Source: Desulfotignum sp. (GTDB lineage Bacteria > Desulfobacterota > Desulfobacteria > Desulfobacterales > Desulfobacteraceae). From it: a stretch of DNA of 47,453 nt. The notes beneath the pieces were generated by a model. It searched no databases and was not told where the DNA came from. It saw only the letters and a list, made by a program, of their open reading frames with translations. The stretch spans positions 1 to 47,453 of the forward strand of contig JAABSB010000005.1 of the NCBI GenBank assembly GCA_011390615.1, read 5' to 3'. The position numbers were made by a program, and so were the translations under genes. Shown piece after piece: positions 1 through 43,122 of this stretch. Within the stretch, counting starts at the first letter, position 1. Every line of letters starts with the position of its first letter.

Positions 1-136
1 GGGCCACAAACACCCAGAACAGGACAATGACCAGTCCCACCATGGCAATTTTGGAACTGAGCAGGATGACGAACATATCCTTGAGCCGCACTTTTTTGGT
101 TTTTTCAATATTCTTGGTTTCAACTGTTTCAGGCAT
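1..136 (-). CDS. ABC transporter permease, DppC-type (N-terminal part only)
   Basis: The 5' end of a gene that runs off the left edge. About 45 residues are visible: a charged cytoplasmic start (MPETVETKNIEKTKK...) followed by the beginning of a hydrophobic segment, the layout of the N-terminus of DppC/OppC-type permeases. Its ATG overlaps the last 8 bases of the upstream permease gene, so the two are translationally coupled. It should form the second membrane subunit beside the DppB-type protein. The family call rests mainly on this position because no conserved permease motif is visible. Confidence 0.7.
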   Translation of the reverse strand, partial: MPETVETKNIEKTKKVRLKDMFVILLSSKIAMVGLVIVLFWVFVA

Positions 137-1427: not shown

Positions 1428-1499
1428 AAAAATCCCTGTTCCTTTGTTTAAGGGGCCCGCACGCTGGATTTTTCAGGTGCGGGCCGCACAGGTTTTTAT

Positions 1500-3143: not shown

Positions 3144-3273
3144 GCTTGCCTCCTTTTTTTTCTTGAATGATACCGAATTTTCATACAAACCACTGGCCTG
3201 TGAAGTCTGTATGGTTATTACATGCCCTCCTTTTTAATGCAATTTTTTTTACTATTTTTTTAAAAAAGTAGTT

Positions 3274-4743: not shown

Positions 4744-4761
4744 GTGCTTTCCTTTCAAAAA

Positions 4762-17251: not shown

Positions 17252-17266
17252 TATTCACCATGTGAT

Positions 17267-24787: not shown

Positions 24788-24936
24788 GGGGTCAGAAGTT
24801 AACTTTTTTACCTTTTTTGTTATCGGGAGGATGGACCTGATAAGCTTTTTTTATTCTAACCTGGAAAACCTAAATCAGGATATTTACTGTGTTTTGGAAA
24901 ATAGAAAAAAAGGTAAAAAAGTTAACTTCTGACCCC
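24788..24936. repeat. Hairpin element copy 3 (149 bases, 31-base perfect inverted ends)
   Basis: Arms 24788-24818 and 24906-24936 are identical to those of copy 2. The centre is 87 bases, longer than in copy 2, but shares TATCGGG, GAGG, TGG, CCTGATA and a T-run. It lies directly after the truncated sensor's stop codon, and its right tip forms the last codons and stop (positions 24922-24924) of the convergent MFS gene. It can fold into a long hairpin with T-runs on both strands and would serve as a two-way terminator. Confidence 0.87.
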
Positions 24937-26214
24937 AACCCTGAGGCAGAGCATCAGGGTGAATGCGATGCAGGCAATACCAATCAATACCAGAAATGCT
25001 GCCGCATAGTTCTGGAACATATCAAATAAAAACCCGGTGACAAAGGGGCCGACAGCACCGCCGGTGGTGCCGGAAAACACCACAATGCCAAACAGGCTGC
25101 CATGGGCCCTGATCCCGAACAATTCAGCCACCATGGGGGAGATGGCTGTGAAAAATCCGCCGTGGGCGATGCCGTACACCATGGCAAAGGTGTACAGTTT
25201 CCATAAGGCATCGGCCCGGGTCAGCCAGGCCAGGGCGGTGAGGAGCAGCACAAAGCAGATGACCATGATGGCCTTGCTGCCGGTTCTGTCAATGAGTATG
25301 CCGCTGGTAAACCGTCCCAGCATGGAGACAGCACCGATGGCGGCCAGCACCCCTGCGGCCCGGTGGGGCGGGATGCCCATGTCCCGGCCATGGGGAACGA
25401 TGTGGATCATGACGCTCATCAGGCAGAACGCCGTCAGCAGGTAGGACAGGCACAGCAGCCACAATTTTGCAGATTTGAGGGCCTGGGAAAAATCCATGCC
25501 TGCGGTCTGCAAAGGCCGGATTCCGGTACAGGCAGCCGCCCCGGCAGGGCCTGCAGCGCCGGCAACAGCTGTCGCATCGGCAGCAGCACCGACAGTAACG
25601 GAAGCGCCGGCACCGGCTCCGTAATATATATCCGGATCCCGGTGAAGGAACTGGGCAATGACCATGAGCAGGACAAAGGCGCTGGCTCCCATAATGATGA
25701 ATGCATTCTGAAATCCTGTCCAGGCAATGAGAAAGCTGGCGATGATGGGAATGGTGAACTGCCCGGCACCGGTGCCCACCTTGACGATACCTGTCATTTT
25801 GCCCCGGTTCAGGCTGTACCAGCGGGTAATGGTGGTCAGGGCAATAACATCCACAGATGACAGGCCGATGCCGAAAATCAGGCCGAAAACCAGATACAGC
25901 TGAAAAAGGGTGGATACCTGGGACATGAGACCAAACCCCAGCCCCAAAAAAACTGCGGCAATGCTCATGAGAAGCCTGGGACCGAACCGGTCGTTGAGCC
26001 GTCCCACCACCATGGCGAACAGGCCGGTGATGAAAAAAGCAGCAGATGATGCCCCGGAAATGGCAGCTCTGGGCCAGTCAAAAAATTCCAGTAGCGGGTT
26101 GAAAAACACCCCGTAGGAGATGTATATGCCCACCCCCACTGCCTGGATACTGAAGCATGCCCCGGTGATAATCCTGCTGTAATCCGCCCGGCGCCGGCGG
26201 AAACCTGTTTTCAT
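24922..26214 (-). CDS. MFS transporter, oxalate/formate antiporter (OFA)-like
   Basis: A 430-residue, 12-helix secondary transporter. The first half shows the MFS loop 2-3 motif as GRLNDRFGPRLLM and helix 5 features (GAGQFTIPIIASFLI); the second half has GILIDRTGSKAIM. The overall style (SYGVFFNPLLEFFDWPRAAIS) resembles the OFA group of carboxylate transporters. The central cytoplasmic loop (about residues 199-232) is an Ala/Gly low-complexity tract. The start overlaps the hydantoinase gene by 4 bases, so it probably carries a substrate or product of that operon. Its last residues (GVRS) and stop codon are encoded by hairpin element copy 3. Confidence 0.85.
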   Translation of the reverse strand: MKTGFRRRRADYSRIITGACFSIQAVGVGIYISYGVFFNPLLEFFDWPRAAISGASSAAFFITGLFAMVVGRLNDRFGPRLLMSIAAVFLGLGFGLMSQVSTLFQLYLVFGLIFGIGLSSVDVIALTTITRWYSLNRGKMTGIVKVGTGAGQFTIPIIASFLIAWTGFQNAFIIMGASAFVLLMVIAQFLHRDPDIYYGAGAGASVTVGAAADATAVAGAAGPAGAAACTGIRPLQTAGMDFSQALKSAKLWLLCLSYLLTAFCLMSVMIHIVPHGRDMGIPPHRAAGVLAAIGAVSMLGRFTSGILIDRTGSKAIMVICFVLLLTALAWLTRADALWKLYTFAMVYGIAHGGFFTAISPMVAELFGIRAHGSLFGIVVFSGTTGGAVGPFVTGFLFDMFQNYAAAFLVLIGIACIAFTLMLCLRVGVRS

Positions 26215-29147: not shown

Positions 29148-30353
29148 CTATTTCAGAAAGGTATCCCCTTTTTCAAAATCCCCTTCCCGGAACCGGGAAT
29201 ACCGCAGGGGATTGTCTGTGTTGTCCATTTTGCCGGTGGCAATGTCTGCCACCCGTTTGCCGGCACCCGGAGACATCATGACCCCGCACCAGTATCCGCA
29301 GTTAACATGAAATCCCTCAATTTCTCCGCAAGGACCGATGACAGGCTTGTCATCCGGGGTGTATACATACTGGCCGGCAGATACGTTGACATCTTCGGCC
29401 TTGAGGTTGTCAGCCACTTTTTCCAGAAACGGGTTGAGCCGGGATACCCGGTGGATTGATTCAGCGGCAAAGTCCCAGTCCGTGGGCAGTTCATCAGCAG
29501 GCGCAGATTCCGGTTCATCCGGGTCCACCCAGGCACAGAGCAGGCCGCCTGCTTCCGGGCGCCAGTACCCGTGGTTCACCAGATCCACGGTAAAAGGGGC
29601 AGCGGCCGGCAGGTCCGGGTGGTCTGTTTTGATATATGCTTTCTGGCGCCGCACTGTACGCAGGGGCATGTCTATGCCAGCCATCTTTCCGATGACCCCG
29701 GCAAAGGGTCCGGCACAGTTGACCACCAGCCGGGTGGAAATGGTGCCTTTATCGGTTTTTACAGCGCATACCCCCTGGCTGTCGGTCTGGATGTCTGTGA
29801 CTTCTGTCTTCATAAAAAACGCGGCATCACCAGCCCCTTTGGCAAATCCATAGGTGGCCTCATGGGTGGACAGCCACCCGTCCCGGATGTTGAAGGTGGC
29901 TCCGAGAGCCTGGGGGGCCAGGAAGGCAAAGCGCTTGTGCAGATCATCCGTGCCGATGTATTCAGCCCCGGGGATGCCAATGGCATGGTATTGGGCCACG
30001 GCCTTTTTCAGATCCGGCAGCTGGGCTTCATCATCAGTGACAAACAGGTATCCCCGCTGGGTCATATGGATGTCAATGCCGGGCAGACCAACAACATCAT
30101 TGAAATTTTCAAACATCTCCACACTGGCAAGGGCCAGGTCAGCCATGGATTTTTCCGTGAACTGGGTGCGGAAACATTCCACGCTGGCAGCAGTGGTCAG
30201 GCTGGACAGGGCATCGCGTTTTTCCACCAGGATGGTTTTCATGCCGGCTTTTGACAGCCAGAAAGCGGTTGCCGATCCCACAATGCCGCCGCCGATAACC
30301 ACGGCGTCAGCTGTGATGGTACCGTATTCCTTTGGTATGGTGATGTGACTCAT
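29148..30353 (-). CDS. DAO-family FAD-dependent oxidoreductase (sarcosine oxidase beta-like)
   Basis: A 401-residue flavoprotein. The FAD motif 'ADAVVIGGGIVGSATAFWL' lies at about 15-33, followed by the DAO-type 'VECFRTQFTEKSM', the strand 'RLVVNCAGPFAGVIG', and the C-terminal FAD closure 'GFHVNCGYWCGVMMSPGAG'. Such enzymes oxidise N-methyl or secondary amino acids (sarcosine, N-methylglycine derivatives). It follows MttB2 by 141 bases with AAGGA before its ATG. It may remove the last methyl in the demethylation series. No signal peptide. Substrate not determinable from sequence. Confidence 0.85.
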   Translation of the reverse strand: MSHITIPKEYGTITADAVVIGGGIVGSATAFWLSKAGMKTILVEKRDALSSLTTAASVECFRTQFTEKSMADLALASVEMFENFNDVVGLPGIDIHMTQRGYLFVTDDEAQLPDLKKAVAQYHAIGIPGAEYIGTDDLHKRFAFLAPQALGATFNIRDGWLSTHEATYGFAKGAGDAAFFMKTEVTDIQTDSQGVCAVKTDKGTISTRLVVNCAGPFAGVIGKMAGIDMPLRTVRRQKAYIKTDHPDLPAAAPFTVDLVNHGYWRPEAGGLLCAWVDPDEPESAPADELPTDWDFAAESIHRVSRLNPFLEKVADNLKAEDVNVSAGQYVYTPDDKPVIGPCGEIEGFHVNCGYWCGVMMSPGAGKRVADIATGKMDNTDNPLRYSRFREGDFEKGDTFLK

Positions 30354-30494: not shown

Positions 30495-31913
30495 CTATTT
30501 GTTGCGGACAGCTTCCATGTATCTGTCCAGGTCCCTGCGGATGGCGGGGTCCATGTCAGGGGGTTCAAAGTTATCCAGGATCTCTTTGTATTTGGCATTG
30601 GCCTGCTGTTCCATGGAAAGACTGCCCTTTGCGGTCCAGGCATCAAAATTGCGGCGTTCCTCCATAAGCGGTGCATACAGTTCTGATCTGAAATATTGAA
30701 ATGTGTGGCGATTAGTCAGATATTCTCCGCCAGGTCCCACCTGGTCGATCACATCCAGGGCCAGTTTTTCCGGGATGATCTCTTCCCCTTTTTTTATGCG
30801 GCGGCACATGCCCATCATTTCCGCATCGATCATGAATTTTTCATAGGACGCGGTCATATACCCTTCCAGAATGCCGGCGGCATGCAGCACAAAATTGATC
30901 CCGCTCAAACAAGCCATCTGCAGGCTCATCATGGATTCAAACCCGGCCTGGGAATCCACCATTTTGGCATCGGTCAGGGCCCCGCCGCCCCGGGAGGGCA
31001 GGTTGTAGAACCGTCCCATCTGGGCGGTGGCTGCAGTGTTCACCGCCATTTCAGGGGCACCGATGCTCAGGGTGCCGTAATGCATGGCCGTAGCAGAGGA
31101 GGATCCGGCAAAGATCACCGGTGCCCCTTCTCTCACCAGCTGGGCCAGGCAGATGCCGGCCAGTACTTCTGCATTCTGGACCACCAGGGTGCCTTCCATG
31201 GTCACCGGCGTGGTGGCACCGGCAATGGACAGAGAAGAGATCAGCTGGGGCATGCCGGCTGCGGCATAGGCCATGATGCCGGCGCACATTTTGTCATCAA
31301 ACCCCAGGGGGGTCAGGCTGGTGAGAATGCTCACAAAGGGCGGTTTTTTTGCCATTTCCTCTCTTCCCCCGAACAACATGGCTGCCATATCCAGCGTCTG
31401 CACCGCATCAGGTCCGCCTGTGCCGGCTCCCATGAAAGGCTTGTCAGACAGGACCATGGCAGCATAAATACGTTCCGCATTGCGTATTTCAACAGGGATA
31501 TCATTGGGTTCCACCATCATGCCGCCGGTGATGTCAAAATAGGGGATGGCACAGGCCAGTTTGGCAAAGTTTTCAAAATCCTTCAGGGTGCCGAACCGCC
31601 GGCCATGTTCCATGCAATTGACAAACGGCGATCCATAGCAGGGCATGAATGCGATATTGTCTCCGCCAATAACCACATTTTTTTCCGGATTTCTGGCATA
31701 AAGGGTGAATTGGGACGGGGCTTTTTTTATCTGTTCCTCCACAAATTTTTTCGTAAAATACACCCGCACCCCGTCCACTTTGCACCCTGCTTTTTTAAAC
31801 AGGTCCAGGGCAGGTGCGTATTTAAAATGCATACCGGTCTTTTCCAGCACAGCCATGGTGGCTGCATGGATTCTTTCTGTTTCCTGTGAAGAGAAATATT
31901 CAAAAAACCCCAT
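30495..31913 (-). CDS. MttB-family methyltransferase 2 (betaine/quaternary amine:corrinoid type)
   Basis: A 472-residue member of the MttB superfamily, again without an amber codon. Landmarks are the N-terminal 'SSQETERIHAATMAVLEKTG', the central 'SSLSIAGATTPVTMEGTLVV', GALTDAKMVDSQAGFESMMSL and C-terminal 'VGPGGEYLTNRHTFQYFRSE'. It is distinct from MttB1 upstream, so the two are not recent duplicates. AAGGA lies 6 bases before the ATG. It heads a leftward operon with a good sigma-54 promoter about 140 bases upstream, opposite a sigma-54 activator. The neighbouring dimethylglycine dehydrogenase-like gene and BCCT transporter suggest glycine betaine or a similar substrate. Confidence 0.9.
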   Translation of the reverse strand: MGFFEYFSSQETERIHAATMAVLEKTGMHFKYAPALDLFKKAGCKVDGVRVYFTKKFVEEQIKKAPSQFTLYARNPEKNVVIGGDNIAFMPCYGSPFVNCMEHGRRFGTLKDFENFAKLACAIPYFDITGGMMVEPNDIPVEIRNAERIYAAMVLSDKPFMGAGTGGPDAVQTLDMAAMLFGGREEMAKKPPFVSILTSLTPLGFDDKMCAGIMAYAAAGMPQLISSLSIAGATTPVTMEGTLVVQNAEVLAGICLAQLVREGAPVIFAGSSSATAMHYGTLSIGAPEMAVNTAATAQMGRFYNLPSRGGGALTDAKMVDSQAGFESMMSLQMACLSGINFVLHAAGILEGYMTASYEKFMIDAEMMGMCRRIKKGEEIIPEKLALDVIDQVGPGGEYLTNRHTFQYFRSELYAPLMEERRNFDAWTAKGSLSMEQQANAKYKEILDNFEPPDMDPAIRRDLDRYMEAVRNK

Positions 31914-31944
31914 GATATATCCTTATTCAGTTAAAAGGTTATGA

Positions 31945-31964
31945 TGCCGGAACATTTTCTGGCA
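31945..31964. promoter_or_regulatory. Imperfect dyad in the leader of the MttB2 operon
   Basis: TGCCGGAA-CATT-TTCTGGCA has one mismatch between arms and lies between the MttB2 start codon and its sigma-54 promoter. The TTCTGG half matches half-sites found near the other sigma-54 promoter. It may be an activator or repressor site. Confidence 0.35.
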
Positions 31965-31999
31965 CAATTTTTCATTGGCGGTATATCCACGTGATATAA

Positions 32000-32028
32000 T
32001 CCAGAAATGCAAGCAACATGTTCCAGAA
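32000..32028. promoter_or_regulatory. Direct repeat TCCAGAA x2, spaced 22 bases
   Basis: TCCAGAA occurs at 32000-32006 and 32022-32028, two helical turns apart. The same heptamer forms the arms of the dyad at 33904-33924, ahead of the other sigma-54 promoter. It is a candidate binding site for the activator encoded between the two places. Confidence 0.35.
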
Positions 32029-32051
32029 TATATAGTATATAGCATATCGCT

Positions 32052-32068
32052 AGCATATTTCATGCCAG
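32052..32068 (-). promoter_or_regulatory. Sigma-54 (-24/-12) promoter of the MttB2 operon
   Basis: Minus-strand CTGGCATG-AAAT-ATGCT fits the consensus YTGGCACG-N4-TTGCW at 11 of 13 defined bases, with the invariant GG and GC separated by exactly 10 bases. Transcription would start near 32040, about 127 bases before MttB2. It lies in the 391-base gap shared with the divergent sigma-54 activator gene. Confidence 0.7.
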
Positions 32069-32263
32069 ATCATGAAATGAACCGGCAGACACCCGGTGAC
32101 CACCCGGGAACCGTCTCTTTGGGGGGATGGATCCGCTATTTTCAGGGCTTTCGGCACGGCGTATTTGTGCTGCTGCACCGAAAAAAATCAAAATTTTTTT
32201 ATATCTCTTGCTTTTTTGGGAAAATTCATGCATCCAGGAATGACAGGATGAGATAAAACAAAA

Positions 32264-32287
32264 AAAAATCAAAAAAATTTGATTTTT
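32264..32287. promoter_or_regulatory. Perfect AT-rich dyad just upstream of the activator gene
   Basis: AAAAATCAAA-AAAA-TTTGATTTTT ends 17 bases before the activator ATG. A related AATCAAAATTTTTT run lies near 32187. It could be an autoregulatory operator or a bent-DNA segment. Confidence 0.35.
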
Positions 32288-32304
32288 ACTGGTAAAAAGC
32301 ATTT

Positions 32305-33741
32305 ATGGACCGTATCAATTTCGAAGATATCGACATTTACAGTGTGCTGTCTTCCATGCATGAAGGGGTGGTGATTGCAGATATCTCCGGAAAAGTCATA
32401 TTTTTCAACAATACCCAGGGCCAGATTGATGATGTTGCCCCCAAGGATGCCATCGGCAAAAAAATTCTGGATATCTACCAGCTGGGGGATGATACCAGCC
32501 CCATCATGCGCTGCCTCATCAGCGGGGCACCCATCATCAATGAAACCCTGGTATACCGGACAAGGCTGGGACGGGTATGCAATATTCTGTTCAGCGTATT
32601 TCCCCTTTACAAAAACGGGAACCTCATCGGGGCCATCAATTTTTCCAAGGAATACCAGCTCCTTGAACAGGTGATTCTGTCACAGTCATCTTCTGCCGGT
32701 TCTGTGCAGAAAAAGTCCTTGAACGGCACCCGGTTTTCCTTTAAGGATATTATTGCATCCGATCCCGAGATGCGCAATGCCATCCGCATCGCCAGAATGT
32801 CTGCCGGCTCACCGTCCCCCATCATGATCTCCGGGGAGACCGGCACGGGAAAGGAATTGTTTGCCCAGTCCATACACAACCACAGCCCGAGAAAGAAAAA
32901 ACCCTTTATCCCGGTCAACTGCGCCGCCATTCCTGAAAACCTGCTGGAGGGCATATTGTTCGGCACCTCCAGGGGATCATTTACCGGTGCCATTGACAAG
33001 CCGGGCCTGTTTGAGCAGGCCAACGGCGGGACCATTTTTCTGGATGAACTGGATGCCATGCCCCTGACCCTCCAGGCCAAACTGCTCCGGGTGATCCAGG
33101 AAAAAAAGGTGAGAAAACTGGGATCACTCAAGGAGATAGACCTGGATGTAAAAATACTGTCGTCTGTGGGGCAGCCGCCGTTGAAAATTATCCGGAACGG
33201 CGCCCTTCGCATGGATCTTTTTTACCGCATGGGGGTGGTGTCCGTTCTGCTGCCCCCTCTGCGGGAGCGTAAAGGGGAGCTGGACACATTGATCCGGTAC
33301 TTTATCGTAAAATACAACCAGGCCCTGAATGAAAATGTGAAAACCATCTCTCCCAGGGTGGCACATCTGTTTGCCGGTTATGACTGGCCGGGAAATGTCA
33401 GGGAACTTGAGCATATCATTGAAGCATCCATGAATATGGTGGGCGGGACAAGTGTTATACGCCTGGCCCACCTGCCGCCCCACATTTTCAGTTTCGCCGG
33501 AAAGGAAAGACTCCAGACGGGTTCTGCCGGGCACAACAACAAAGAAATTTTCAAAAAAAGCAGCCTGCTGGAGACCCAGGCATCCAATGAAATGGAAATG
33601 ATCATGGACGCCCTGGCCCGGTACAGGGGAAATGCTGCCCGGGCAGCCAGACACCTGGGTATTTCTCCCCAGTCTTTTCATTACAAGCTGAAAAAATATG
33701 GCATTAACCGAAAAGCGTTTGTTTCCCGGGAGCCTGTGTAA
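32305..33741 (+). CDS. PAS-containing sigma-54-dependent transcriptional activator
   Basis: A 478-residue enhancer-binding protein. A PAS domain (about 8-125, SSMHEGVVIADISGKVIFFNN) senses the signal. The AAA+ domain (about 145-380) has Walker A GETGTGKE at 177-184, Walker B 'GGTIFLDELDAM', the sigma-54 contact loop as GSFTGA at 224-229 (usual GAFTGA), and the 'DWPGNVRELEHII' sensor region. A Fis-type HTH closes the protein ('NAARAARHLGISPQSFHYKL'). The architecture is that of RocR-like regulators of amino acid use. Both flanking operons have -24/-12 promoters, so it very probably controls MttB2 and the ABC-dehydrogenase-ETF operon. Confidence 0.92.
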   Translation: MDRINFEDIDIYSVLSSMHEGVVIADISGKVIFFNNTQGQIDDVAPKDAIGKKILDIYQLGDDTSPIMRCLISGAPIINETLVYRTRLGRVCNILFSVFPLYKNGNLIGAINFSKEYQLLEQVILSQSSSAGSVQKKSLNGTRFSFKDIIASDPEMRNAIRIARMSAGSPSPIMISGETGTGKELFAQSIHNHSPRKKKPFIPVNCAAIPENLLEGILFGTSRGSFTGAIDKPGLFEQANGGTIFLDELDAMPLTLQAKLLRVIQEKKVRKLGSLKEIDLDVKILSSVGQPPLKIIRNGALRMDLFYRMGVVSVLLPPLRERKGELDTLIRYFIVKYNQALNENVKTISPRVAHLFAGYDWPGNVRELEHIIEASMNMVGGTSVIRLAHLPPHIFSFAGKERLQTGSAGHNNKEIFKKSSLLETQASNEMEMIMDALARYRGNAARAARHLGISPQSFHYKLKKYGINRKAFVSREPV

Positions 33742-33843
33742 AAGTGTAAAAAAAATTTACAGTAAAACGCAAAATTTTTTAATTTTTTTTTGCCGGACAC
33801 AAAGAGCGTATTTCAGGGTCGAATTTTATTTTTATGGGGATTT

Positions 33844-33888
33844 CATTAAAATTTTATCAGAAATGTCAATGTTTCTCAAATTTTAATG
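33844..33888. repeat. Inverted CATTAAAATTT repeat upstream of the ABC operon
   Basis: CATTAAAATTT (33844-33854) is matched by its complement at 33878-33888. A third, direct copy (CATTAAAATTTT) lies at 33991-34002, just before the GGAGG of the binding protein gene. The repeats flank the sigma-54 promoter and may bind a second regulator or IHF-like protein. Confidence 0.35.
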
Positions 33889-33903
33889 CCCAAAATCACG
33901 GTT

Positions 33904-33924
33904 TGTTCTGGAAAATCCAGAACA
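33904..33924. promoter_or_regulatory. Perfect dyad next to the sigma-54 promoter of the ABC operon
   Basis: TGTTCTGGA-AAA-TCCAGAACA, with 9-base perfect arms, ends 3 bases before the -24 box. The TCCAGAA half also occurs twice in the divergent control region at 32000-32028. Activator sites usually lie further upstream, so this could instead be a repressor or modulator site. Confidence 0.5.
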
Positions 33925-33927
33925 GAG

Positions 33928-33944
33928 TTGGTACATAAAGTGCA
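33928..33944 (+). promoter_or_regulatory. Sigma-54 (-24/-12) promoter of the ABC transporter-dehydrogenase-ETF operon
   Basis: TTGGTACA-TAAA-GTGCA matches YTGGCACG-N4-TTGCW at 10 of 13 defined bases and keeps GG-N10-GC. Predicted start of transcription is near 33955, about 60 bases before the binding protein ATG. The sigma-54 activator gene lies directly upstream. Confidence 0.65.
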
Positions 33945-34014
33945 TGACAATAAGGGATGTTGGTAAGGAATGTCCCACACAGGCACGTAACATTAAAATT
34001 TTGGAGGAAGACTT

Positions 34015-35274
34015 ATGGGTACGAAGAAGATTCAATTGGTTATCGCGTGTTTTATGGCAGTTTTGTTGTTGGCAGGCGGCCAGGCATTTGCTGCTGATAA
34101 AGTCCTGAAAGTAGGGGTGCTGGGACCTTTTACCGGCCCTTCTGCCCAGAACGGTAAGGAATTTCAGGCTTCTGTCGAAATGGCCATGGAGGCTATTGAT
34201 TCCACCGTTGGTGATTACAAGATTGAAGTAGTCTGGGTGGATTCTCAATCAGACCCTGCAAAGGCGGCAAGTGCCTATGCTGAAGCAGTGGAAGGCAAGG
34301 GTATCCAGGCCGGGGTATTGAACTGGCACTCTTCGGTTGCTGTTTCAGTTATGGATGTGGCTGCCCAGTACAAGGTACCCCATATGTTCGGTTTCGGTGC
34401 CTCTGAAGTGGTGAATGAAAAATGGCAGGCTGATCCGGAAAAATACTCCTATTGGGGAGGAAAAGGATGGCCTGTACCTGCAAAACTTGAAGGAAACTAT
34501 ATTGAATGCATCAACCAGGTCATTGAAAGCGGTACCTGGAAGCCCAAAAAGAAGCTGGCAGCCATATATGGTGAAGATACTGATTGGGGCCGCAGTGCTG
34601 GTGGTGCTTATAAACAGGCATTGCTTGACAGTGGATGGGAAATTTATGCTGAAGAATATTTTCCCATTACACAGACCGATTTTTATCCCCTTCTTGCAAA
34701 ATTTAAAAGTGCCGGCGTAGAGCTGCTTGCCGGTACATCCACAGCCGCCCCTTCCTTGACCGCTTTTGTGAAGCAACATGCAGAAGTGGGGAACAAAGGT
34801 GTCCTTATTGCCTCCGGCCTGGGATGGATTGGTGACTGGTATAAAATGACCGGTCCGGGATCTGATTATGTGCTGGATTCCATTCCCCAGCTGACCACTG
34901 CTGAAGCCAAGCAATGGGCAAAAGATGTCAAGGCCAAATATGGATTCAACCCCAGCCCCTCCTCCGGCGGTCTTTCCTATGACGGCATCCGGATGTTCAT
35001 CAAGATTCTTGAAAGAACCAATGAACTGCACGGCAAGCTTGACAAGGAAACCATCCACAAGACCATGCTGGATGAAGTCAATACCGGCAAACTCACCTAT
35101 GGCAAAAAAGACGGTGCCATCATCATGAACGAATACAAATATACCCCGGAAACCATGCCTGACATGGTGGTGGGGCCTGAAGCCTATTTTTTCCCCATCC
35201 TCCAGTACAAAAAAGGCAAAGGATACATTATCTTTCCTGAGGACTGGAAACAAAAAGACTTTGAAAAAAAGTAG
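34015..35274 (+). CDS. Branched-chain-type ABC transporter substrate-binding protein
   Basis: Periplasmic receptor of the LivJ/Peripla_BP_6 class, 419 residues. A signal peptide (MGTKKIQLVIACFMAVLLLA, cleavage after AFA near 26) precedes a mature part that opens 'KVLKVGVLGPFTGPSAQNGK', the family's ligand-cleft loop. It is first in an operon of ATPases, permeases, an FAD-GcvT dehydrogenase and ETF, so its ligand is likely an N-methylated amino acid or betaine instead of leucine. That is inference. GGAGG lies 7 bases before the ATG. A hairpin after the gene may raise its level relative to the other subunits. Confidence 0.92.
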   Translation: MGTKKIQLVIACFMAVLLLAGGQAFAADKVLKVGVLGPFTGPSAQNGKEFQASVEMAMEAIDSTVGDYKIEVVWVDSQSDPAKAASAYAEAVEGKGIQAGVLNWHSSVAVSVMDVAAQYKVPHMFGFGASEVVNEKWQADPEKYSYWGGKGWPVPAKLEGNYIECINQVIESGTWKPKKKLAAIYGEDTDWGRSAGGAYKQALLDSGWEIYAEEYFPITQTDFYPLLAKFKSAGVELLAGTSTAAPSLTAFVKQHAEVGNKGVLIASGLGWIGDWYKMTGPGSDYVLDSIPQLTTAEAKQWAKDVKAKYGFNPSPSSGGLSYDGIRMFIKILERTNELHGKLDKETIHKTMLDEVNTGKLTYGKKDGAIIMNEYKYTPETMPDMVVGPEAYFFPILQYKKGKGYIIFPEDWKQKDFEKK

Positions 35275-35360: not shown

Positions 35361-36089
35361 GTGATTGTATTGGAAACCCAGAACCTGACCAAAAAATTTG
35401 GCGGACTGACAGCCGTGAATGCCGTCTCCATGACAATCAACCAGGGAGATATCGTCGGATTGATCGGTCCCAACGGGGCCGGAAAAACAACACTTATTAA
35501 TGCGATTTCAGGACTGAATCCCCCCACATCCGGGACGGTTAAGATGTTCGGCAAAGAGACAACCGGCCTGGCACCTGAGAAAATGTGCCGGCTGGGCCTG
35601 TCCCGGACCTTCCAGATCCCCAGCCCGTTTCCCAAAATGACAGCCATTGAAAGTGTGATGACAGCCACCATATTCGGTAATGCTGCTGGAAAAGTGGCTG
35701 ACCCGGTGGCCCATTCCAGAGAAATGCTCAAGTTTGTGGAATTTCCCATGGAAGAAACCGTTGTGGCGGAGCAGTTGAACACCGTACAGCTCAAACGCCT
35801 GGACCTGGCCAGGGCCCTGGCTTCCAGTCCAAAGCTTTTGTTCATGGATGAAATGGCATCCGGGCTGAGTGAAGGCGAACTCAAGGATATCATGAGAATT
35901 ATTCATAAAATCAGCAAAAAAAACATCTCCATTCTCATGATCGAACATATCATGCAGTTGATCATGGCTGTCTGCAATCGGCTTCTTTGCATTCAGTTCG
36001 GCACAAAGATTGCTGAGGGATCCACCCAGGAAGTGGCCAATGATCCCAATGTGACAAGGGCATACCTCGGTGATGAAGCAGACAAATAA
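35361..36089 (+). CDS. Branched-chain-type ABC transporter ATPase (LivG-like)
   Basis: A 242-residue cytoplasmic ATPase. Walker A is GPNGAGKTT (37-45), the Q-loop lies near SRTFQIPSPF and Walker B near LLFMDE. The signature is degenerate: LNTVQLKR at 139-146, where LivG proteins normally have LPYGDQRR or LSGGQ-like text, and Walker B is followed by MASGL in place of P-A-A-G-L. ATP hydrolysis at the composite site that uses this signature may be impaired. GTG at 35361 follows AAGGA. The pair LivG/LivF precedes the permeases, an order different from the common livHMGF. Confidence 0.88.
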   Translation: MIVLETQNLTKKFGGLTAVNAVSMTINQGDIVGLIGPNGAGKTTLINAISGLNPPTSGTVKMFGKETTGLAPEKMCRLGLSRTFQIPSPFPKMTAIESVMTATIFGNAAGKVADPVAHSREMLKFVEFPMEETVVAEQLNTVQLKRLDLARALASSPKLLFMDEMASGLSEGELKDIMRIIHKISKKNISILMIEHIMQLIMAVCNRLLCIQFGTKIAEGSTQEVANDPNVTRAYLGDEADK

Positions 36090-36117
36090 TGGTAATTGAA
36101 AAATCAATGGAGATCAT

Positions 36118-36825
36118 ATGCTGTTAGAAGTCAAAAATCTGAATGCCGGATACGGATACCTGCAGATATTGCGGGATGTTTCACTGCATATCGACAAAGG
36201 GGAGTATGTGGGGATTGTCGGCCCCAACGGTGCCGGGAAAAGTACCACCATGAAAACCATAGCCGGACTGCTTTCCCCCATGAGCGGCAAGGTGGTCTTC
36301 AATGGAGAGGATATCACAGGACTGTCAGCTTCGGCTGTAGCAAAAAAGGGTATTTCCTTTGTATCTGAAGAGATGAACCTGTTTGTCAACATGTCGGTGC
36401 AGGAAAATCTGTATATGGGGGCCTATACCATTAAAGAAAAAAGCCTGCAGAATGAACGTCTGGCTTTTGTGTTTGAGCTGTTTCCCCGGCTGGCGGAAAG
36501 AAGAAAACAGCTGGCAGGCACCATGTCCGGCGGGGAGCGTAAAATGCTGGCCATCGGCCGGGGCATGATGTCCAATCCATCTTTGATGCTGGTTGACGAG
36601 CCCTCTTTCGGACTGGCACCCCAGCTGACCACCAGTGTATTTGCATCTTTGGAGGTGTTGATAAAAAACGGGGTGACGATTCTGCTGGTGGAACAGAATG
36701 TGACCAAAACGCTTGCTGTAACAGGTCGTGGTTATGTCCTGGAAAACGGTAAAATCGGTCTGGAAGGCAAGAGTACGGATCTGGCTGAAGACAGTTATGT
36801 GAAAAAGGTGTTCCTGGGTGTTTAA
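36118..36825 (+). CDS. Branched-chain-type ABC transporter ATPase (LivF-like)
   Basis: A 235-residue ATPase with intact motifs: Walker A GPNGAGKST (35-43), signature MSGGERKMLAIGR and Walker B LMLVDEPSFGLAP, then the His-loop replaced by the usual LivF-type Gln in 'LLVEQNVTKTL'. It pairs with the LivG-like subunit whose signature is altered. GGAGAT lies shortly before the ATG, and the gap to the upstream ATPase gene is 28 bases. Confidence 0.93.
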   Translation: MLLEVKNLNAGYGYLQILRDVSLHIDKGEYVGIVGPNGAGKSTTMKTIAGLLSPMSGKVVFNGEDITGLSASAVAKKGISFVSEEMNLFVNMSVQENLYMGAYTIKEKSLQNERLAFVFELFPRLAERRKQLAGTMSGGERKMLAIGRGMMSNPSLMLVDEPSFGLAPQLTTSVFASLEVLIKNGVTILLVEQNVTKTLAVTGRGYVLENGKIGLEGKSTDLAEDSYVKKVFLGV

Positions 36826-36848
36826 TCAGACTTTGGAGAAATAGATTC

Positions 36849-37877
36849 ATGTCAAAAAATTATATGTCACATATACTGCCCTGGCTCAAAACAGCCCCGG
36901 GTATGTCCATTGCCATCAGCATTGTAGTGGCTGTAGCTGCCACGATTGATGCAGGTCCTTATTTGTTGGTGAACATGGTTGTTACCGGTGGAATGCTGGC
37001 CCTGGTGGCCACCGGCCTGACCCTGATGCTGGGGGTTTTGAACATTCCCATGTTTGCCCACGGCGAGTATTTTATGATAGGCTCTCTCATTGCTTATTAC
37101 ATATTTACCCCTATCAGTGAATTCATTCTTGAACACCCGGAATCCTGGCTGGTCACTTTTGGTCCTTTTATTGCCATTATCGGCGCCCTTGTGGGGGGCG
37201 CCATCGCCGGTGCCATATCTGAAAAACTGGTTTTCGGACCGTTGCGCCGCCGTTCCACAGACAACTGGGTCATGAACTCTTTTCTGCTCACAGTGGGATT
37301 GAGCGTGCTGCTCATCAACCTGCACCAGCTCATATTCGGGGCTGATTTTAAAGGCATTGTGGGATACTGGCAGGGTATGCCGATTTCCATTGCTGATGTG
37401 TATGTCTCGAAAGACCGGGTCATGGCCTTTATTATATCAGCCGTGATTGTGGCACTGTTTTATCTGTTCATGACCTATACCCGCACCGGCATGGCCATCC
37501 GGGCTGTTTCCCAGGATATTACCGGGGCTGAGATTGTGGGTATTGATATTGAAAAAATTGTACTGCTTACCATAGCTCTGGCCTGTGCACTGGCAGGGGT
37601 GGCAGGGGGCAGCCTGTTGTTCATGTATCCATCCTATCCCACAGTGGGGTTGGAGCCCCTTTATATGGCCTGGTTTGTGGTCATTCTTTCGGGTCTGGGC
37701 AATATTTTAGGAGCAGTGACAGGGGCCTTTATAGTAGCACTGCTCAAGGTCATCACAATGGAATATGTGGGAGCGGGTTGGGATTTTGTCGTACCATCGG
37801 CATTGATCATGTTTATCCTGATTTTTAAACCCAGCGGGATCTTCGGGTCGGACGTCCGCGGTGTTCTTGATAAATAG
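36849..37877 (+). CDS. Branched-chain-type ABC transporter permease (LivH-like)
   Basis: Inner-membrane subunit, 342 residues, with about eight hydrophobic helices. LivH features are 'VATGLTLMLGVLNIPMFAHGEYFMIG' in parts near residues 50-75 and the C-terminal 'YMAWFVVILSGLGNILGAVTGA' followed by IVALL. The EAA-like loop 'GMAIRAVSQDITGAEIVGID' lies near 215. It starts 23 bases after the LivF-like gene. Confidence 0.92.
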   Translation: MSKNYMSHILPWLKTAPGMSIAISIVVAVAATIDAGPYLLVNMVVTGGMLALVATGLTLMLGVLNIPMFAHGEYFMIGSLIAYYIFTPISEFILEHPESWLVTFGPFIAIIGALVGGAIAGAISEKLVFGPLRRRSTDNWVMNSFLLTVGLSVLLINLHQLIFGADFKGIVGYWQGMPISIADVYVSKDRVMAFIISAVIVALFYLFMTYTRTGMAIRAVSQDITGAEIVGIDIEKIVLLTIALACALAGVAGGSLLFMYPSYPTVGLEPLYMAWFVVILSGLGNILGAVTGAFIVALLKVITMEYVGAGWDFVVPSALIMFILIFKPSGIFGSDVRGVLDK

Positions 37878-37900
37878 GCGCTTGATACATAGGAGACAGT

Positions 37901-38929
37901 ATGGATACGATAAAAAATGAGCTTCAAATGAATTCCTTTGACAGGGTGCTGGACAAGCTGTGCCTGACCCCCATCGGTCTTGCCGGCCTGATACTGCTGC
38001 TTATACTGCCTTTTATTCCACCGTTTAACCAGGAATATATACTCAGGTGGCTGATCTACTGCGGGTTTATTGCAGCCATGAGTGTGGGATTTGATTTCAC
38101 AGCCGGATATATCAACATTGTCAATTTCGGGTACATGGCAGTGGCAGGCACCGGTGGCTACACATCCGCCCTGCTGGTTATCAATGCCGGGCTGTCCCCG
38201 TGGATCGCCATGGTGGCCGGGGGTGTTTCTTCTGCGATTTTGGGGCTGGTCATCGGCATGATATCCCTGCGGCTGCGGGGTATTTTTGCTGCCTGCCTGT
38301 CCTGGTTTTTCGGTCTGGCCGTCATGGGACTCGCCGTTAAAATGGTCTGGCTGACCAGAGGACCTCTGGGTCTGAGAGTTCCGCGCCTTTTTGAGACGGA
38401 ATCCAATTTTCCGTTTTATTTTTTGATCATCATCCTGGTATATCTTACCTATCTGATCTGCAAATGGGTGGTAAGATCAAAGATGGGACTGGCATTCCAG
38501 GCCATCGGCCAGAACATGGATGCCGCCAGAACATCCGGTATTGATCCGGTATTCTACAGGGTATTCAATTTCACCATGTCATGCGCCATTGCAGGGGTGC
38601 TGGGCGGATTTTACGCCCATTTTTACGGGATTCTGACCCCGGATATGATGCATACATCCAAGACCGTGGAAGTGCTGGCAGTGGCGTATATAGGGGGCAG
38701 GGGAAGCCTGTGGGGCGGGGCGGTTGTTGCCTTTCCCTTTATTTTTCTCATGGAAATTGTCCGGTCTACCCTGTCCAATCTGCCCGGGCTGAACCTGGTG
38801 ATTTATGCTTTGGTGCTTATCCTGGTGATGATCTATTATCCGGGCGGGTTCTCATATTTTTATGATACCCATATCCGGCAGCCCAAAAACAGGGCATTGC
38901 GGTATTTTTTAAATGGTAGAGACGTGTAA
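37901..38929 (+). CDS. Branched-chain-type ABC transporter permease (LivM-like)
   Basis: Second membrane subunit, 342 residues. Typical LivM stretches are 'FDFTAGYINIVNFGYMAVAG', 'GLAFQAIGQNMDAARTSGID' (EAA loop) and the C-terminal 'VAYIGGRGSLWGGAVVAFPF'. AGGAGA precedes the ATG. The dehydrogenase gene follows after 24 bases, so uptake and oxidation are encoded as one unit. Confidence 0.92.
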   Translation: MDTIKNELQMNSFDRVLDKLCLTPIGLAGLILLLILPFIPPFNQEYILRWLIYCGFIAAMSVGFDFTAGYINIVNFGYMAVAGTGGYTSALLVINAGLSPWIAMVAGGVSSAILGLVIGMISLRLRGIFAACLSWFFGLAVMGLAVKMVWLTRGPLGLRVPRLFETESNFPFYFLIIILVYLTYLICKWVVRSKMGLAFQAIGQNMDAARTSGIDPVFYRVFNFTMSCAIAGVLGGFYAHFYGILTPDMMHTSKTVEVLAVAYIGGRGSLWGGAVVAFPFIFLMEIVRSTLSNLPGLNLVIYALVLILVMIYYPGGFSYFYDTHIRQPKNRALRYFLNGRDV

Positions 38930-38953: not shown

Positions 38954-41374
38954 ATGAAAACCACTGCAAGAGCGGTTGTAATCGGTGGCGGCGTCATCGG
39001 CGTCAGTGTGGCCTATCACCTGGCAAAATATGGATGGAAAGATGATGTTGTTCTTCTGGAAAAACATGAGCTGACATCCGGATCCACCTGGATGGCGGCA
39101 GGGAATGTGTCTTTTTTCCATTCCAACTATTACGGTACCCAGGTGAACAAAAAGAGTATCGAGATCTATAAGGGCCTGGAAAAAGAGACCGGTCAGCCTG
39201 TCGGGTGGCACACTACCGGCTCCATCCGGACGGCGGACAATCCGGGGCGTATGGATGAACTGGGATATGCCTATTCCATGAACCGCTGCCTTGGCCTGGA
39301 TGTGTCCTATGTCACACCGGAAGAGATCGGGAAAATGCATCCCTTTATACAGACGGACGGGCTCCTGGGGGGTCTGTACTGGCCGGATGACGGGGATGTT
39401 GACCCCAACTCCCTGACCCAGGCAATGGCCAAGGGCGCCCGGAAACTCGGGGTGGAGTTCAACCTTCACACCATGGTCACGGGCATCTATCAGAAATCCA
39501 GTGGCGAATGGGTGGTGCAGACCGATAAAGGCGAAATCACCTGTGAAAACGTGGTGAACGCCGCCGGCCTGTGGGCGCCGGAAGTGGCGCGGATGGTTGG
39601 ACTGGAGATTCCCTCCATTTCCATTGCCCACACCCATATTCTTTATGAATCAATTCAGTCGATTGCGGACCGGGATACCTACCTGCCCCTGATGCGTGAT
39701 CCGGACAAATCCATTTACCTGCGCCAGGAAATGGATTCCCTGATACTGGGCCTGTATGAAGCCAATGGCCAGCAGTGGTACAAGAACGGTGTACCCTGGG
39801 ATTATGCCCAGGAAGAACTGAACCCGGATTTTGACAACATTTCCGACTGTATCGAAGGCGGTATCGAACGCTTCCCCATCCTGGGTGAAACCGGTTTTAA
39901 ACATGTTACCGCCGGTCCTATTACCTATACCCCCAACGGCGATCCCCTGGTGGGCCCGGCAGCACCGCTGAAAAACTTCTATAATGCCTGCGGTTACAGC
40001 TTCGGCATCACCCAGGCAGGCGGCATCGGCCACTACCTGGCCGGGTGGATGATGAACGGCGAGCCTGAAATCGATCTGTGGCCAATGGATTCCCGGCGCT
40101 ACGGCTCCTATGCCAACTGGGCGTATAATACGGAAAAAATTGCCGACACCTATCCCAGGCTTTATTCCACCATTTATCCCAATGAGTTCCGGGATGCAGC
40201 CCGCCCCAACCGCACCTCCCCCATTTATGAATACCAGAAGCAGGCCAATGCGGTGTTCGGGGATTACTACGGATGGGAATGCCCCAACTATTTTCCGCCC
40301 AAAGGCGAAGATGAATACGAAGAACCCTCCTGGAGACGCTCCAATGCCTTCAAGCACGTGGGCGCTGAATGTAAACACGTCATGGAAAAAGTGGGCATCA
40401 TTGATCTGACCCGGTTTGCCAAAACAAAAATATCCGGACCCGGCGCCAAAGACTGGCTCAACAAGATGACCTGCCAGAAGGTGCCGGAAAAAGATGGCCG
40501 CATTGCCCTGAGCCCCATGCTGGACCATAACGGAAATTTCAAGACCGATATGACCGTGAGCCGTATCAATGAAAATGAGTTTTTCTGTGTTACGGCCTCT
40601 GTGGGCAAAAAGCACGACCAGCACTGGATGATCGAAAACCTGCCCGAAGATGGATCGGTGTGTATGGAAGACATCACCTACCAGATGGGATGCCTTGTTC
40701 TGGTAGGTCCCAAATCCCGCGAAGTTCTGGCCAAGGTGGCCTATGATGATGTTTCCAATGAAGCCTTCAAGTTCGGTACCTCACAGGAGATTTACGTGGG
40801 CCGGACCAAATGCCGGGTCAACCGCATGAACTATGTGGGTGAACTGGGATTTGAGATCTTTCATCCCGTTCAGCACCAGATCACCTTGTACCATGATCTC
40901 ATGAATGCCGGCGCAGACTTTGACATCCGGCTTATCGGTATGCACGCCATGGATTCCATGCGTCTGGAAAAAGGATACCTGGCCTGGAAGAGTGAAATGA
41001 ACGTTCACCATACACCGCTGGAAACAAATGTGGCCTGGACCGTAAAAATGGACAAGGAGTTCAACGGGAAAAAAGGCATTGAAAAACAGAAAAAAGAGGG
41101 GATCCCCCAGAAACTGGTTTGCCTGGTGGTGGATGCCACAGATTCAGACCCCTTCGGATATAACCCGATTTTCCATGGAGAGGAACGTATCGGCATGACA
41201 TCTTCCGGTGGATACGGCCACCGGGTTGAAAAGAGTATCGCCATGGGGTATGTTAAAACGCAGTTTGCGGAAATTGGCACCAAGATGGATGTGGAGATCC
41301 TGGGACGTAAGCGCAGTGCCCGGGTTGTGGCCATGCCCCTGTATGATCCTAAAAACGAAAAAATGAAGAGCTAA
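38954..41374 (+). CDS. Dimethylglycine/sarcosine dehydrogenase-like FAD-GcvT fusion
   Basis: An 806-residue two-part enzyme. The N-terminal DAO domain (about 1-370) has the FAD motif 'AVVIGGGVIGVSVAYHL' and the family sequence GSTWMAAGNVSFFHSN. In mitochondrial dimethylglycine dehydrogenase the matching WHAAG His binds FAD covalently; here it is Met47, so FAD is probably held non-covalently. The C-terminal part (about 430-800) is a GcvT/aminomethyltransferase domain with 'NYVGELGFEIFHPVQHQITL' and SARVVAMPLYDP, which passes the released methyl to tetrahydrofolate. EtfB and EtfA follow directly and should take the electrons. It has no signal peptide, so it acts in the cytoplasm. Exact N-methyl substrate uncertain. 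Confidence 0.9.
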   Translation: MKTTARAVVIGGGVIGVSVAYHLAKYGWKDDVVLLEKHELTSGSTWMAAGNVSFFHSNYYGTQVNKKSIEIYKGLEKETGQPVGWHTTGSIRTADNPGRMDELGYAYSMNRCLGLDVSYVTPEEIGKMHPFIQTDGLLGGLYWPDDGDVDPNSLTQAMAKGARKLGVEFNLHTMVTGIYQKSSGEWVVQTDKGEITCENVVNAAGLWAPEVARMVGLEIPSISIAHTHILYESIQSIADRDTYLPLMRDPDKSIYLRQEMDSLILGLYEANGQQWYKNGVPWDYAQEELNPDFDNISDCIEGGIERFPILGETGFKHVTAGPITYTPNGDPLVGPAAPLKNFYNACGYSFGITQAGGIGHYLAGWMMNGEPEIDLWPMDSRRYGSYANWAYNTEKIADTYPRLYSTIYPNEFRDAARPNRTSPIYEYQKQANAVFGDYYGWECPNYFPPKGEDEYEEPSWRRSNAFKHVGAECKHVMEKVGIIDLTRFAKTKISGPGAKDWLNKMTCQKVPEKDGRIALSPMLDHNGNFKTDMTVSRINENEFFCVTASVGKKHDQHWMIENLPEDGSVCMEDITYQMGCLVLVGPKSREVLAKVAYDDVSNEAFKFGTSQEIYVGRTKCRVNRMNYVGELGFEIFHPVQHQITLYHDLMNAGADFDIRLIGMHAMDSMRLEKGYLAWKSEMNVHHTPLETNVAWTVKMDKEFNGKKGIEKQKKEGIPQKLVCLVVDATDSDPFGYNPIFHGEERIGMTSSGGYGHRVEKSIAMGYVKTQFAEIGTKMDVEILGRKRSARVVAMPLYDPKNEKMKS

Positions 41375-41397: not shown

Positions 41398-42168
41398 ATG
41401 AAAATCTGTGTATGTGTAAAACATGTGCCGGACACGGCAGCGACCATCAAGATTGACGGAGAAACCGGATTCAAGGATTCGGAAATCAAGTTTGTTGTCA
41501 ACCCCTATGATGAATATGGGGTGGAAGAAGCTGTCAGTCTGAAGGAAAAAAACGGCGGTGAAGTGGTCATTGTTACTGTGGGAAAAGCCGAAGCTGCCGC
41601 CACCATCCGGTCTGCCCTGGCCATGGGTGCTGACCGGGCCATTCTGGTGACAACAGACAGCCAGTTTCTGGATGCCTCCCTTACGGCCAAAGCATTAAAG
41701 GCGGCCATGGAAAAGGACGGACTGCCGGATCTGATATTCACCGGCAAAGGGTCTGTGGATACCGAAAGCTTCCAGACCCAGTACCGCCTGGCCCATTCCC
41801 TTGGCATACCTGTGGTGAACGAGGTGAGCACCCTGTCTGTGGACGGCAAAAAAGCGGTTGCTGAACTGGAAGTGGGCGGCGGGGACAAACAGGTCATTGA
41901 GATGGGCCTGCCCTGCGTCATCGGGGCCACAAAAGGGTTGAATGAACCCAGGTACCCCAAATTTCCGGACATCATGAAGGCCAAGAAAAAGAAAATTGAC
42001 GAAATGACCCTTTCAGATCTTGGCATTGATGCATCTGCTCCGGGTGTGACCCTGGAAAAACTGGAGCCTGTGCCTGAAAGAACCGGTGCAAAAATGATTG
42101 AAGGATCAGTGGAAGAACAGGTGACCGAACTTATCCGGATCCTGAAACAAGATGAAAAGGTTTTATAA
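41398..42168 (+). CDS. etfB: Electron transfer flavoprotein beta subunit
   Basis: A 256-residue EtfB. It begins 'MKICVCVKHVPDTAATIKID' and has 'VVNPYDEYGVEEAVSLKEK', the AMP-binding-type 'ALAMGADRAILVT' and the recognition-loop region 'EMGLPCVIGATKGLNEPRYP'. It starts 23 bases after the dehydrogenase and should accept electrons from it. No ETF:quinone oxidoreductase gene is visible in the window. Confidence 0.96.
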   Translation: MKICVCVKHVPDTAATIKIDGETGFKDSEIKFVVNPYDEYGVEEAVSLKEKNGGEVVIVTVGKAEAAATIRSALAMGADRAILVTTDSQFLDASLTAKALKAAMEKDGLPDLIFTGKGSVDTESFQTQYRLAHSLGIPVVNEVSTLSVDGKKAVAELEVGGGDKQVIEMGLPCVIGATKGLNEPRYPKFPDIMKAKKKKIDEMTLSDLGIDASAPGVTLEKLEPVPERTGAKMIEGSVEEQVTELIRILKQDEKVL

Positions 42169-42186
42169 AATAAGGAGATAGATGTT

Positions 42187-43122
42187 ATGGCCAGTACTGG
42201 CATATTGATTGAAACTGAAAACGGTGCGGTCAAGGAAACCTCCCTGGGAGTGATGACAGCTGCAGCCGGTCAGGAAATAATCGCTTTGGTTGTGGATGCA
42301 GATCCGGCAGGCCTCAAGGACAAGCTGGCGGAATATGGTGCAGCCAAAATCGTGAAACTGACGGCTGCAGACAAGGATGTGTCAGCCAGCCCTGACCTTG
42401 CAGCCCATGCCCTGGCTGCGGCAGTGGAAAAATACGGCCTTACAGCCCTTCTGGGTACCGCATCCTCCACAGGAAAAGACCTGTTTGCCCGCCTTGCAGC
42501 CATCATGGACCAGCCAATGGTGTCCGACTGTGTGGCCCTGGATATTGCGGCCAAAACAGCAAAAAAATCCCATTTTTCCGGGAAAACCTTTGCCACCCTG
42601 AAAGTGGATGCCCAAGTTTTTCTGGCAACGGTGCGGCCCAATGCCATTGAGGCCAAGGCATCTGCAGGTGCCGGTGAGATTGAGGCGTTCTCGGCCGATG
42701 TGACCGATCCCGGACTGCTCACCATTAAGGAAGTGAAAAAAGGTGATGCCGGCAAGATAGATCTCACGGAAGCCCCGGTCATTATCACCGGCGGCCGTGC
42801 CATCAAGGCAGCGGAGAACTATAAGATGCTGGAAGACTGTGCCGCCAAGATGGGGGCTGCAGTGGGTGCTTCACGGGCTGCGGTGGATGCCGGGTATGCC
42901 CCGCATTCCATGCAGGTGGGCCAGACCGGTAAAACCGTATCCCCCAGGCTGTACATCGCCTGCGGGGTTTCCGGTGCTGTTCAGCATTTTGCCGGCATGA
43001 AAACCTCCAAGGTGATTGTGGCCATCAATGAAGACAAGGATGCGCCCATTTTTGCCAAGTGTGATTACGGGATTGTGGGAGACATTTTTGATGTGGTCCC
43101 TGTATTGACTGAAAAATTATAA
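42187..43122 (+). CDS. etfA: Electron transfer flavoprotein alpha subunit
   Basis: A 311-residue EtfA, the FAD-carrying partner of EtfB. The C-terminal FAD domain is intact: '[20 protein letters not shown]', [26 protein letters not shown] in pieces, '[17 protein letters not shown]' and '[20 protein letters not shown]'. AAGGAG precedes the ATG. It is last in the operon and ends 8 bases before a strong terminator. Confidence 0.96.

Follow-up and report, generated by a model that had tools for sequence, protein, structure and literature searches.

Does a single sigma-54-dependent activator join the demethylation of betaine to the oxidation of its products? This question is raised by a stretch of 47,453 nucleotides of Desulfotignum sp. 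(contig JAABSB010000005.1 of assembly GCA_011390615.1, positions 1 to 47,453; the window hereafter), in which an activator gene is flanked by two -24/-12 promoters, one before a methyltransferase gene and the other before genes for a transporter, a dehydrogenase and an electron transfer flavoprotein (ETF). We consider it probable that one PAS sigma-54 activator, with dyads on both sides of its gene and two outward promoters, governs betaine demethylation as well as dimethylglycine and sarcosine oxidation. A first-pass annotation of the window had proposed such a common regulon. The conservation of the promoters and the dyad type found on both sides support this proposal, whereas the role of the sequence TCCAGAA, which it had named as the shared binding site, is refuted.

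Two conserved promoters and the activator between them

32305..33741, plus strand: activator with PAS domain, AAA+ sigma-54 activator domain and Fis-type helix-turn-helix (HTH) by Pfam and NCBIfam; recognition helix SPQSFHYK
32052..32068, minus strand: -24/-12 promoter before the methyltransferase gene, CTGGCATGAAATATGCT, read as CTGGCATG-N4-ATGCT; GG-N10-GC spacing, conserved in orthologs
33928..33944, plus strand: -24/-12 promoter before the transporter, dehydrogenase and ETF genes, TTGGTACATAAAGTGCA, read as TTGGTACA-N4-GTGCA; GG-N10-GC spacing, conserved in orthologs

The letters, coordinates and GG-N10-GC spacing that the first-pass annotation gave for these divergent sites were correct, and both point outward from the activator open reading frame. 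By itself the promoter pattern is weak: YTGGYAY-N6-TGCW has three occurrences in the window, where 0.83 would be expected, at least three copies being reached in 3 of 100 shuffles, and the whole assembly holds 70 copies, compared with four of the reversed control pattern. The two sites are convincing because they are conserved at related loci; the pattern is too common to stand alone.

The window comes from a metagenome assembly (G000) of 3.02 Mb in 222 contigs that is 83% complete, and the best-matching named loci are Desulfotignum assemblies, with activator identities of up to 96% among the matches listed. Using the activator as query, at least 78 loci were collected from genome contigs, and 59 genomes, its own included, were searched in addition. 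Before counting, L102 was left out as a duplicate of L028, and L089-L107 were removed as duplicates with the exception of L097; L099 was also kept in the comparison of helices and dyads. L034 and L066, with 54-55% activator identity and different neighbours, were likewise left out (a sigma-54 site lies upstream in L034, none in L066).

The left promoter was present at the same place and in the same orientation in 24 of 27 ortholog upstream regions. L032 and L036 provided no upstream DNA, and an apparent site of L014, located inside the oxidoreductase gene, was entered as a miss. None of the three loci without the promoter (L014, L020, L029) shows a methyltransferase beside the activator; in L023 the promoter is present although the locus ends before the methyltransferase gene. 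All 28 downstream regions carry the right promoter, L030 being excluded because a contig end cuts the region. The check on relatives that had been proposed with the annotation, namely conservation of both promoters at loci sharing the gene order, gave a positive result. The right promoter reads GGTA, off consensus, in 25 of 28 cases (GGCA in L027, L031 and L035), and the left one GGCA in 24 of 24, a stable difference between them. Both predicted sigma-54 promoters combine GG-N10-GC with a TGGCAY/TGCW context and conservation.

As annotated, the PAS-sigma-54 activator is the only activator gene between the two promoters, and it is kept there across genera. Its features fit a bacterial sigma-54 enhancer-binding protein: an AAA+ sigma-54 interaction domain (PF00158, 195.5 bits) with the Walker A motif GETGTGKE, a Fis-type HTH (PF02954, 50.6 bits) and a sigma-54 contact loop, which reads GSFTGA instead of GAFTGA here, as in 17 of the 38 SPQ-helix activators in the same count. 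The best NCBIfam match was PrdR, the activator of proline reductase; this assignment was rejected at 337.5 bits against a cut-off of 795, and no proline reductase genes were seen at this locus. In the assembly, a single gene for RpoN was identified.

A/T-rich dyads as candidate operator

The annotated copies of TCCAGAA or its complement at 32000, 32022, 33906 and 33916 are indeed present, but their role as common binding site is refuted. The window contains 26 copies, and the sequence is lost in most relatives; within the two control regions of relatives it turns up only in L011, L012, L013, L015, L020 and L036, at shifting positions. The copies at 32000 and 32022 fall on the downstream side of the predicted start site; the pair at 33906 and 33916 abuts the -24 box. 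Neither location is the usual position of an enhancer.

A better candidate for the operator is an A/T dyad of the form RTMAA-N5/6-TTKAY, which is found on both sides of the activator gene.

32187..32202, no strand: upstream dyad 1, ATCAAAATTTTTTTAT; centre about 126 base pairs (bp) upstream of the left -24 box
32268..32283, no strand: upstream dyad 2, ATCAAAAAAATTTGAT; 81 bp from dyad 1, immediately before the activator start
33745..33767, no strand: downstream dyad with a third half-site, TGTAAAAAAAATTTACAGTAAAA (TGT-N11-ACA); directly after the activator stop

The dyads were found by a scan against dinucleotide shuffles in 24 upstream and 28 downstream ortholog regions (26 and 28 in one further set). 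Upstream, the scan yielded ATAAA-N6-TTTAT and ATCAA-N6-TTGAT, and downstream GTAAA-N5-TTTAC plus TTTAC-N1-GTAAA. Every one of the 24 upstream regions bearing the left promoter has at least one dyad and 18 have two, spaced 72-86 bp apart and mostly 80-84 bp, which is about eight helical turns. Across ortholog loci totalling 431,844 bases, only two copies of the strict dyad form lay outside the counted regions, both of them upstream in the excluded L014 and L102. On the downstream side, an ACAGTAA-type half-site is present in 25 of 28 regions and a full TGT-N10/11-ACA dyad in 19. With zero mismatches, the 23-base downstream composite was found once per genome, at this locus, in four of four relatives searched; two mismatches admitted four further places, compared with ten for the reversed control. 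An earlier shared form with N6/7 was discarded, as it matched 26 of 27 upstream but none of the 28 downstream regions (background 22 in 371,662 bases). Likewise, prediction of a regulon from the dyad alone was rejected: across the genome, the loose N6 dyad shows no enrichment over its reversed control (57 copies against 69).

The position of the dyads is steadier relative to the promoters than relative to the activator gene. From the downstream element to the -24 box the median is 170 bp (range 151-180, standard deviation (s.d.) 5.8, n=25), while its distance to the activator stop varies from 17 to 307 bp (s.d. 56, n=25). The clearest case is L037, in which the element lies about 300 bp past the stop and still 171-174 bp from the promoter.

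This behaviour bears on an alternative that we regard as unlikely, according to which the upstream dyads serve the activator's own promoter, in self-regulation or as an UP-like A/T element before the -35 box, so that the downstream element would be the sole true enhancer and the divergent promoter would be served from afar or by another activator. Dyad 1 does lie just before a CTTGC motif, possibly the -35 box of the activator, and dyad 2 just before the start codon; in L029 both upstream dyads are kept although neither a divergent promoter nor a methyltransferase is in view; and SoxR of Bacillus thuringiensis inhibits its own expression (PMC4941409). Nevertheless, the distance of dyad 1 is steadier to the divergent promoter (s.d. 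7.8) than to the activator start (s.d. 20.2; n=18). Furthermore, exact A-tract dyads, with outer letters ignored, occur in 16 of 24 upstream (shuffles 1.7) and 19 of 28 downstream (shuffles 2.5) regions of orthologs, but among paralogs in only one of 19 upstream regions (shuffles 0.5), where no sigma-54 site was seen, and in five of 19 downstream regions (shuffles 1.4), which do have a sigma-54 site. Self-repression of the activator is plausible all the same, because the upstream dyads straddle its start region, and could accompany control of both outward promoters.

Recognition helix and dyad type

Grouping 94 distinct activators, gathered by similarity, according to their recognition helix revealed an association between helix and dyad. 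A dyad of the RTMAA-N5/6-TTKAY form, here called type A, lies on the flank of 33 of 38 activators with an SPQ helix, two of 34 with SRQL(L/F)HYK and five of 22 with other helices (L133, L144, L153, L155, L157). The counts for TGAAA..TTTCA on the flank are 0 of 38, 12 of 34 and 0 of 22, respectively. Even among the ten diverged SPQ activators (43-55% identity), five have a type A flank dyad (L034, L038, L062, L138, L158) and five do not (L051, L066, L148, L151, L199). L138 carries the exact upstream dyad 2 of the window about 100 bp before a sigma-54 site. An MttB-family match was found within 6 kb of 59 of the 94 activators, a sample chosen by similarity.

The helices also speak to the idea that two activators are at work, the one in the window for one operon and a paralog encoded elsewhere for the other, to which we give a still smaller chance than to the self-promoter explanation. 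The dyads differ slightly in form (ATMAA-N6 against GTMAA-N5), and related activators are numerous, with 14 matches at E <= 1e-60 in this genome. On the other hand, a single activator gene stands between the promoters in an arrangement kept across genera, and the adjacent dyads ATAAAATATATTTTAC and GTAAAAATAATTTTAC at the SPQ activator L062 point to recognition of either outer base by one helix. A third possibility, in which only the sigma-54 sites matter and the A/T dyads function as terminators or RNA hairpins, is highly improbable: the downstream element does follow the stop codon directly in the window and is itself followed by T-rich DNA, but in L037 it keeps to the promoter and not to the stop, and the two halves of the upstream dyads do not covary as base pairs at their third positions (A-G 15, A-T 14, C-G 7, C-T 6).

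Several points weigh against control of both promoters by the one activator through these dyads. The N5/6 form was chosen after N6/7 had failed downstream and is thus fitted post hoc, and the dyads were defined on the same sequences in which they were counted. Upstream and downstream dyads differ in the outer base and in one base of spacing, and the loose form, as described, is not enriched genome-wide. Most SPQ activators form one clade, so the cases are not independent, and SPQ paralogs may read the same dyads. The downstream promoter of L027, L033 and L035 has no downstream element, and L029 has its upstream dyads with no promoter to serve on that side. A missing downstream element need not mean that control is lost, since one site serves both promoters in B. 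thuringiensis. Taken together, we hold to the single activator with two outward promoters as the probable arrangement.

Apart from this locus, a sigma-54 site at position 17102 of contig C100 precedes a gene for a TIM-barrel protein (AP_endonuc_2), accompanied by a pair of ATCAAA..TTTGAT-type dyads 31-32 bp apart (G000:C100:16122-17054 and 17102-17252, corresponding to L120:5120-6260; also in L163). At 16 loci checked, 14 of which have the gene's peptide, promoter and dyad occur together in eight (L168-L174 and L183, with a single dyad in L170), the promoter with one weaker dyad in L179, the promoter alone in L178 and neither in L175, L176, L177 and L180; within the same genus, promoter and dyad are kept in eight of 11 loci examined. 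We did not assign the gene to the present regulon because in G014 it lies beside an SPQLLHYK activator.

Enzyme and transporter genes on both sides

24922..26214, minus strand: MFS transporter in the leftward gene row (Pfam MFS_1); at the same place in L012, L018 and L065
26211..29048, minus strand: fusion of DUF1638 and a hydantoinase/oxoprolinase-like part (Pfam); present in several relatives
29148..30353, minus strand: flavin adenine dinucleotide (FAD)-dependent amine oxidoreductase, DAO family; weakly sarcosine-oxidase-like, all NCBIfam scores under cut-off
30495..31913, minus strand: MttB-superfamily methyltransferase (MttB2); in-frame TAG absent, nearest solved structure a glycine betaine methyltransferase
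34015..35274, plus strand: periplasmic substrate-binding protein, branched-chain amino acid type
35361..38929, plus strand: two ATP-binding cassette (ABC) ATPases and two permeases; one of each by domain scan, the others by sequence and conserved order
38954..41374, plus strand: dimethylglycine dehydrogenase-like enzyme with DAO, FAO_M, GCV_T and GCV_T_C domains; 623 bits to 4pab
41398..43122, plus strand: ETF beta and alpha (Pfam)

The methyltransferase, a member of the MttB superfamily with no in-frame TAG, resembles the glycine betaine methyltransferase structures 9yce (497.8 bits) and 2qne (497.6 bits), residues 7-466 of 472 being aligned, and its substrate is probably glycine betaine or a similar quaternary amine. 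The dehydrogenase has the domain architecture of dimethylglycine dehydrogenase and matches 4pab over almost its full length. The gene set can be read as a route from betaine via dimethylglycine and sarcosine to glycine. Relatives whose activators are about 60% identical or more keep the layout, with some losses. L014 lacks both the methyltransferase and the transporter as well as the beginning of the oxidoreductase, and retains the activator, the right promoter and the dehydrogenase-ETF genes; the dehydrogenase directly follows the activator in L014, L020, L027, L029 and L031. In the Desulfobacula-like loci L027, L041, L054, L057 and L058, a second MttB gene and a paralogous activator gene lie convergent beyond the ETF genes. 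Within the window, another leftward row (129-6708) comprises a second MttB homolog, an aldehyde ferredoxin oxidoreductase, a family-5 solute-binding protein and a permease. No Rfam family reached its gathering score in the window.

The locus differs from a known glycine betaine methyltransferase system: the annotated cluster genes include neither a corrinoid protein nor a methyl acceptor enzyme, and the three places in the assembly matched by PF02607 are all outside contig C168. On contig C200 of this genome, a paralogous activator gene and a sigma-54 site at 5192 occur together with genes for a BCCT transporter, a second MttB, a corrinoid protein and a pterin-binding enzyme; another sigma-54 activator gene follows. 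This content suggests that two related sigma-54 activators may share the betaine route. An MttB-family reading frame elsewhere in the assembly (G000:C190:42934-44088, L006) contains one in-frame TAG and is possibly a pyrrolysine MttB.

Proposed mechanism and implications

We propose that the activator responds to a signal, probably betaine, dimethylglycine or a product, binds the A/T-rich dyads RTMAA-N5/6-TTKAY flanking its own gene and would then drive RNA polymerase-sigma-54 at the two outward promoters. Products of the putative left operon would carry out the first demethylation of glycine betaine, or of a similar quaternary amine, by the corrinoid-dependent MttB-type enzyme and supply the FAD-dependent amine oxidoreductase; those of the putative right operon would import substrate and oxidize dimethylglycine through ETF. 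The corrinoid protein and the methyl acceptor enzyme would come from elsewhere, for example from C200.

A wider reading, which we put forward tentatively and at somewhat less than an even chance, is that a family of PAS sigma-54 activators in Desulfobacteraceae, told apart by their recognition helices and matching A/T dyads, splits anaerobic betaine breakdown into modules, so that in sulfate reducers the whole route from betaine to glycine would be controlled through sigma-54 by a readable helix-to-site code. If this holds true, one activator, with dyads of its own near each of two outward promoters, would govern the methyltransferase and dimethylglycine oxidation, and its paralog uptake, the second MttB and the shared corrinoid protein. 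Betaine is described as a common osmolyte in marine sediment (PMC6716910), and in the literature searched we found no paper explaining how its degradation is induced in sulfate reducers. As conserved elements, the promoters and dyads offer testable sites and a basis for regulon prediction in uncultured relatives, and the paralogous activators form a natural series from which the choice of site by a Fis-type helix could be read.

Comparison with known systems

The first-pass annotation knew of no description of sigma-54 control of such a system. This is true only in part, as the general scheme is known from other bacteria; its pairing with a dimethylglycine dehydrogenase/ETF operon in Desulfobacteraceae was not found in the literature searched. 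Nor did we find a report that sigma-54 governs a system of this kind in sulfate reducers, with few subscription papers within reach of the search. The amine terms sought are absent from the main text of the Desulfovibrio vulgaris sigma-54 regulome as available (PMC4641369), and nothing on sigma-54 was found in the accessible portion of PMC12155760. The accounts compared below are likewise cited as far as their available text goes. In marine Alpha-, Gamma- and Deltaproteobacteria the genes for the later demethylations lie near mtgBCD (PMC12478193), and regulators or transporters are reported as absent near the methyltransferase gene cluster of strain DCMF (PMC9768040).

A survey names MttB as one of the target groups of sigma-54 in Clostridia (PMC12316311). 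Fifteen Clostridiales activator groups, including PrdR, use TGT-N10-12-ACA (PMC6615313); the present activator shares their Fis-type HTH, and its downstream dyad fits as TGT-N11-ACA, whereas the upstream dyads have no TGT/ACA. In Eubacterium limosum, the MttB-superfamily genes for MtcB and MtyB are divergent from RocR-like Fis-family regulators, similar to the arrangement described here, but they lie beside an MFS transporter, and sigma-54 sites are unmentioned in that text (PMC8604678). In Sporomusa sphaeroides KIAC, a betaine cluster of 58 kb is activated under betaine and combines genes for betaine methyltransferase and trimethylamine methyltransferase with reported sigma-54-type promoters and activators (PMC12456013). 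In contrast to our locus, it belongs to an acetogen that has both demethylation and glycine/betaine reductase, and the account as available contains neither a dimethylglycine dehydrogenase/ETF pairing nor an activator binding site.

The locus layout corresponds to the sox locus of B. thuringiensis HD73, in which sigma-54 and SoxR control divergent and downstream sarcosine transcripts (PMC4941409). In both cases the activator gene has one divergent sigma-54 promoter (of soxB there) and one downstream (of soxC there), an A/T-rich inverted repeat is the binding site there and the candidate here, and the genes concern N-methyl amine oxidation. Unlike the single site shared by both promoters in B. 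thuringiensis, separate dyads lie near each promoter here, and MttB and dimethylglycine dehydrogenase take the place of sarcosine oxidase. While the general scheme is already known, the lineage, the enzyme pairing and the candidate operator are new here.

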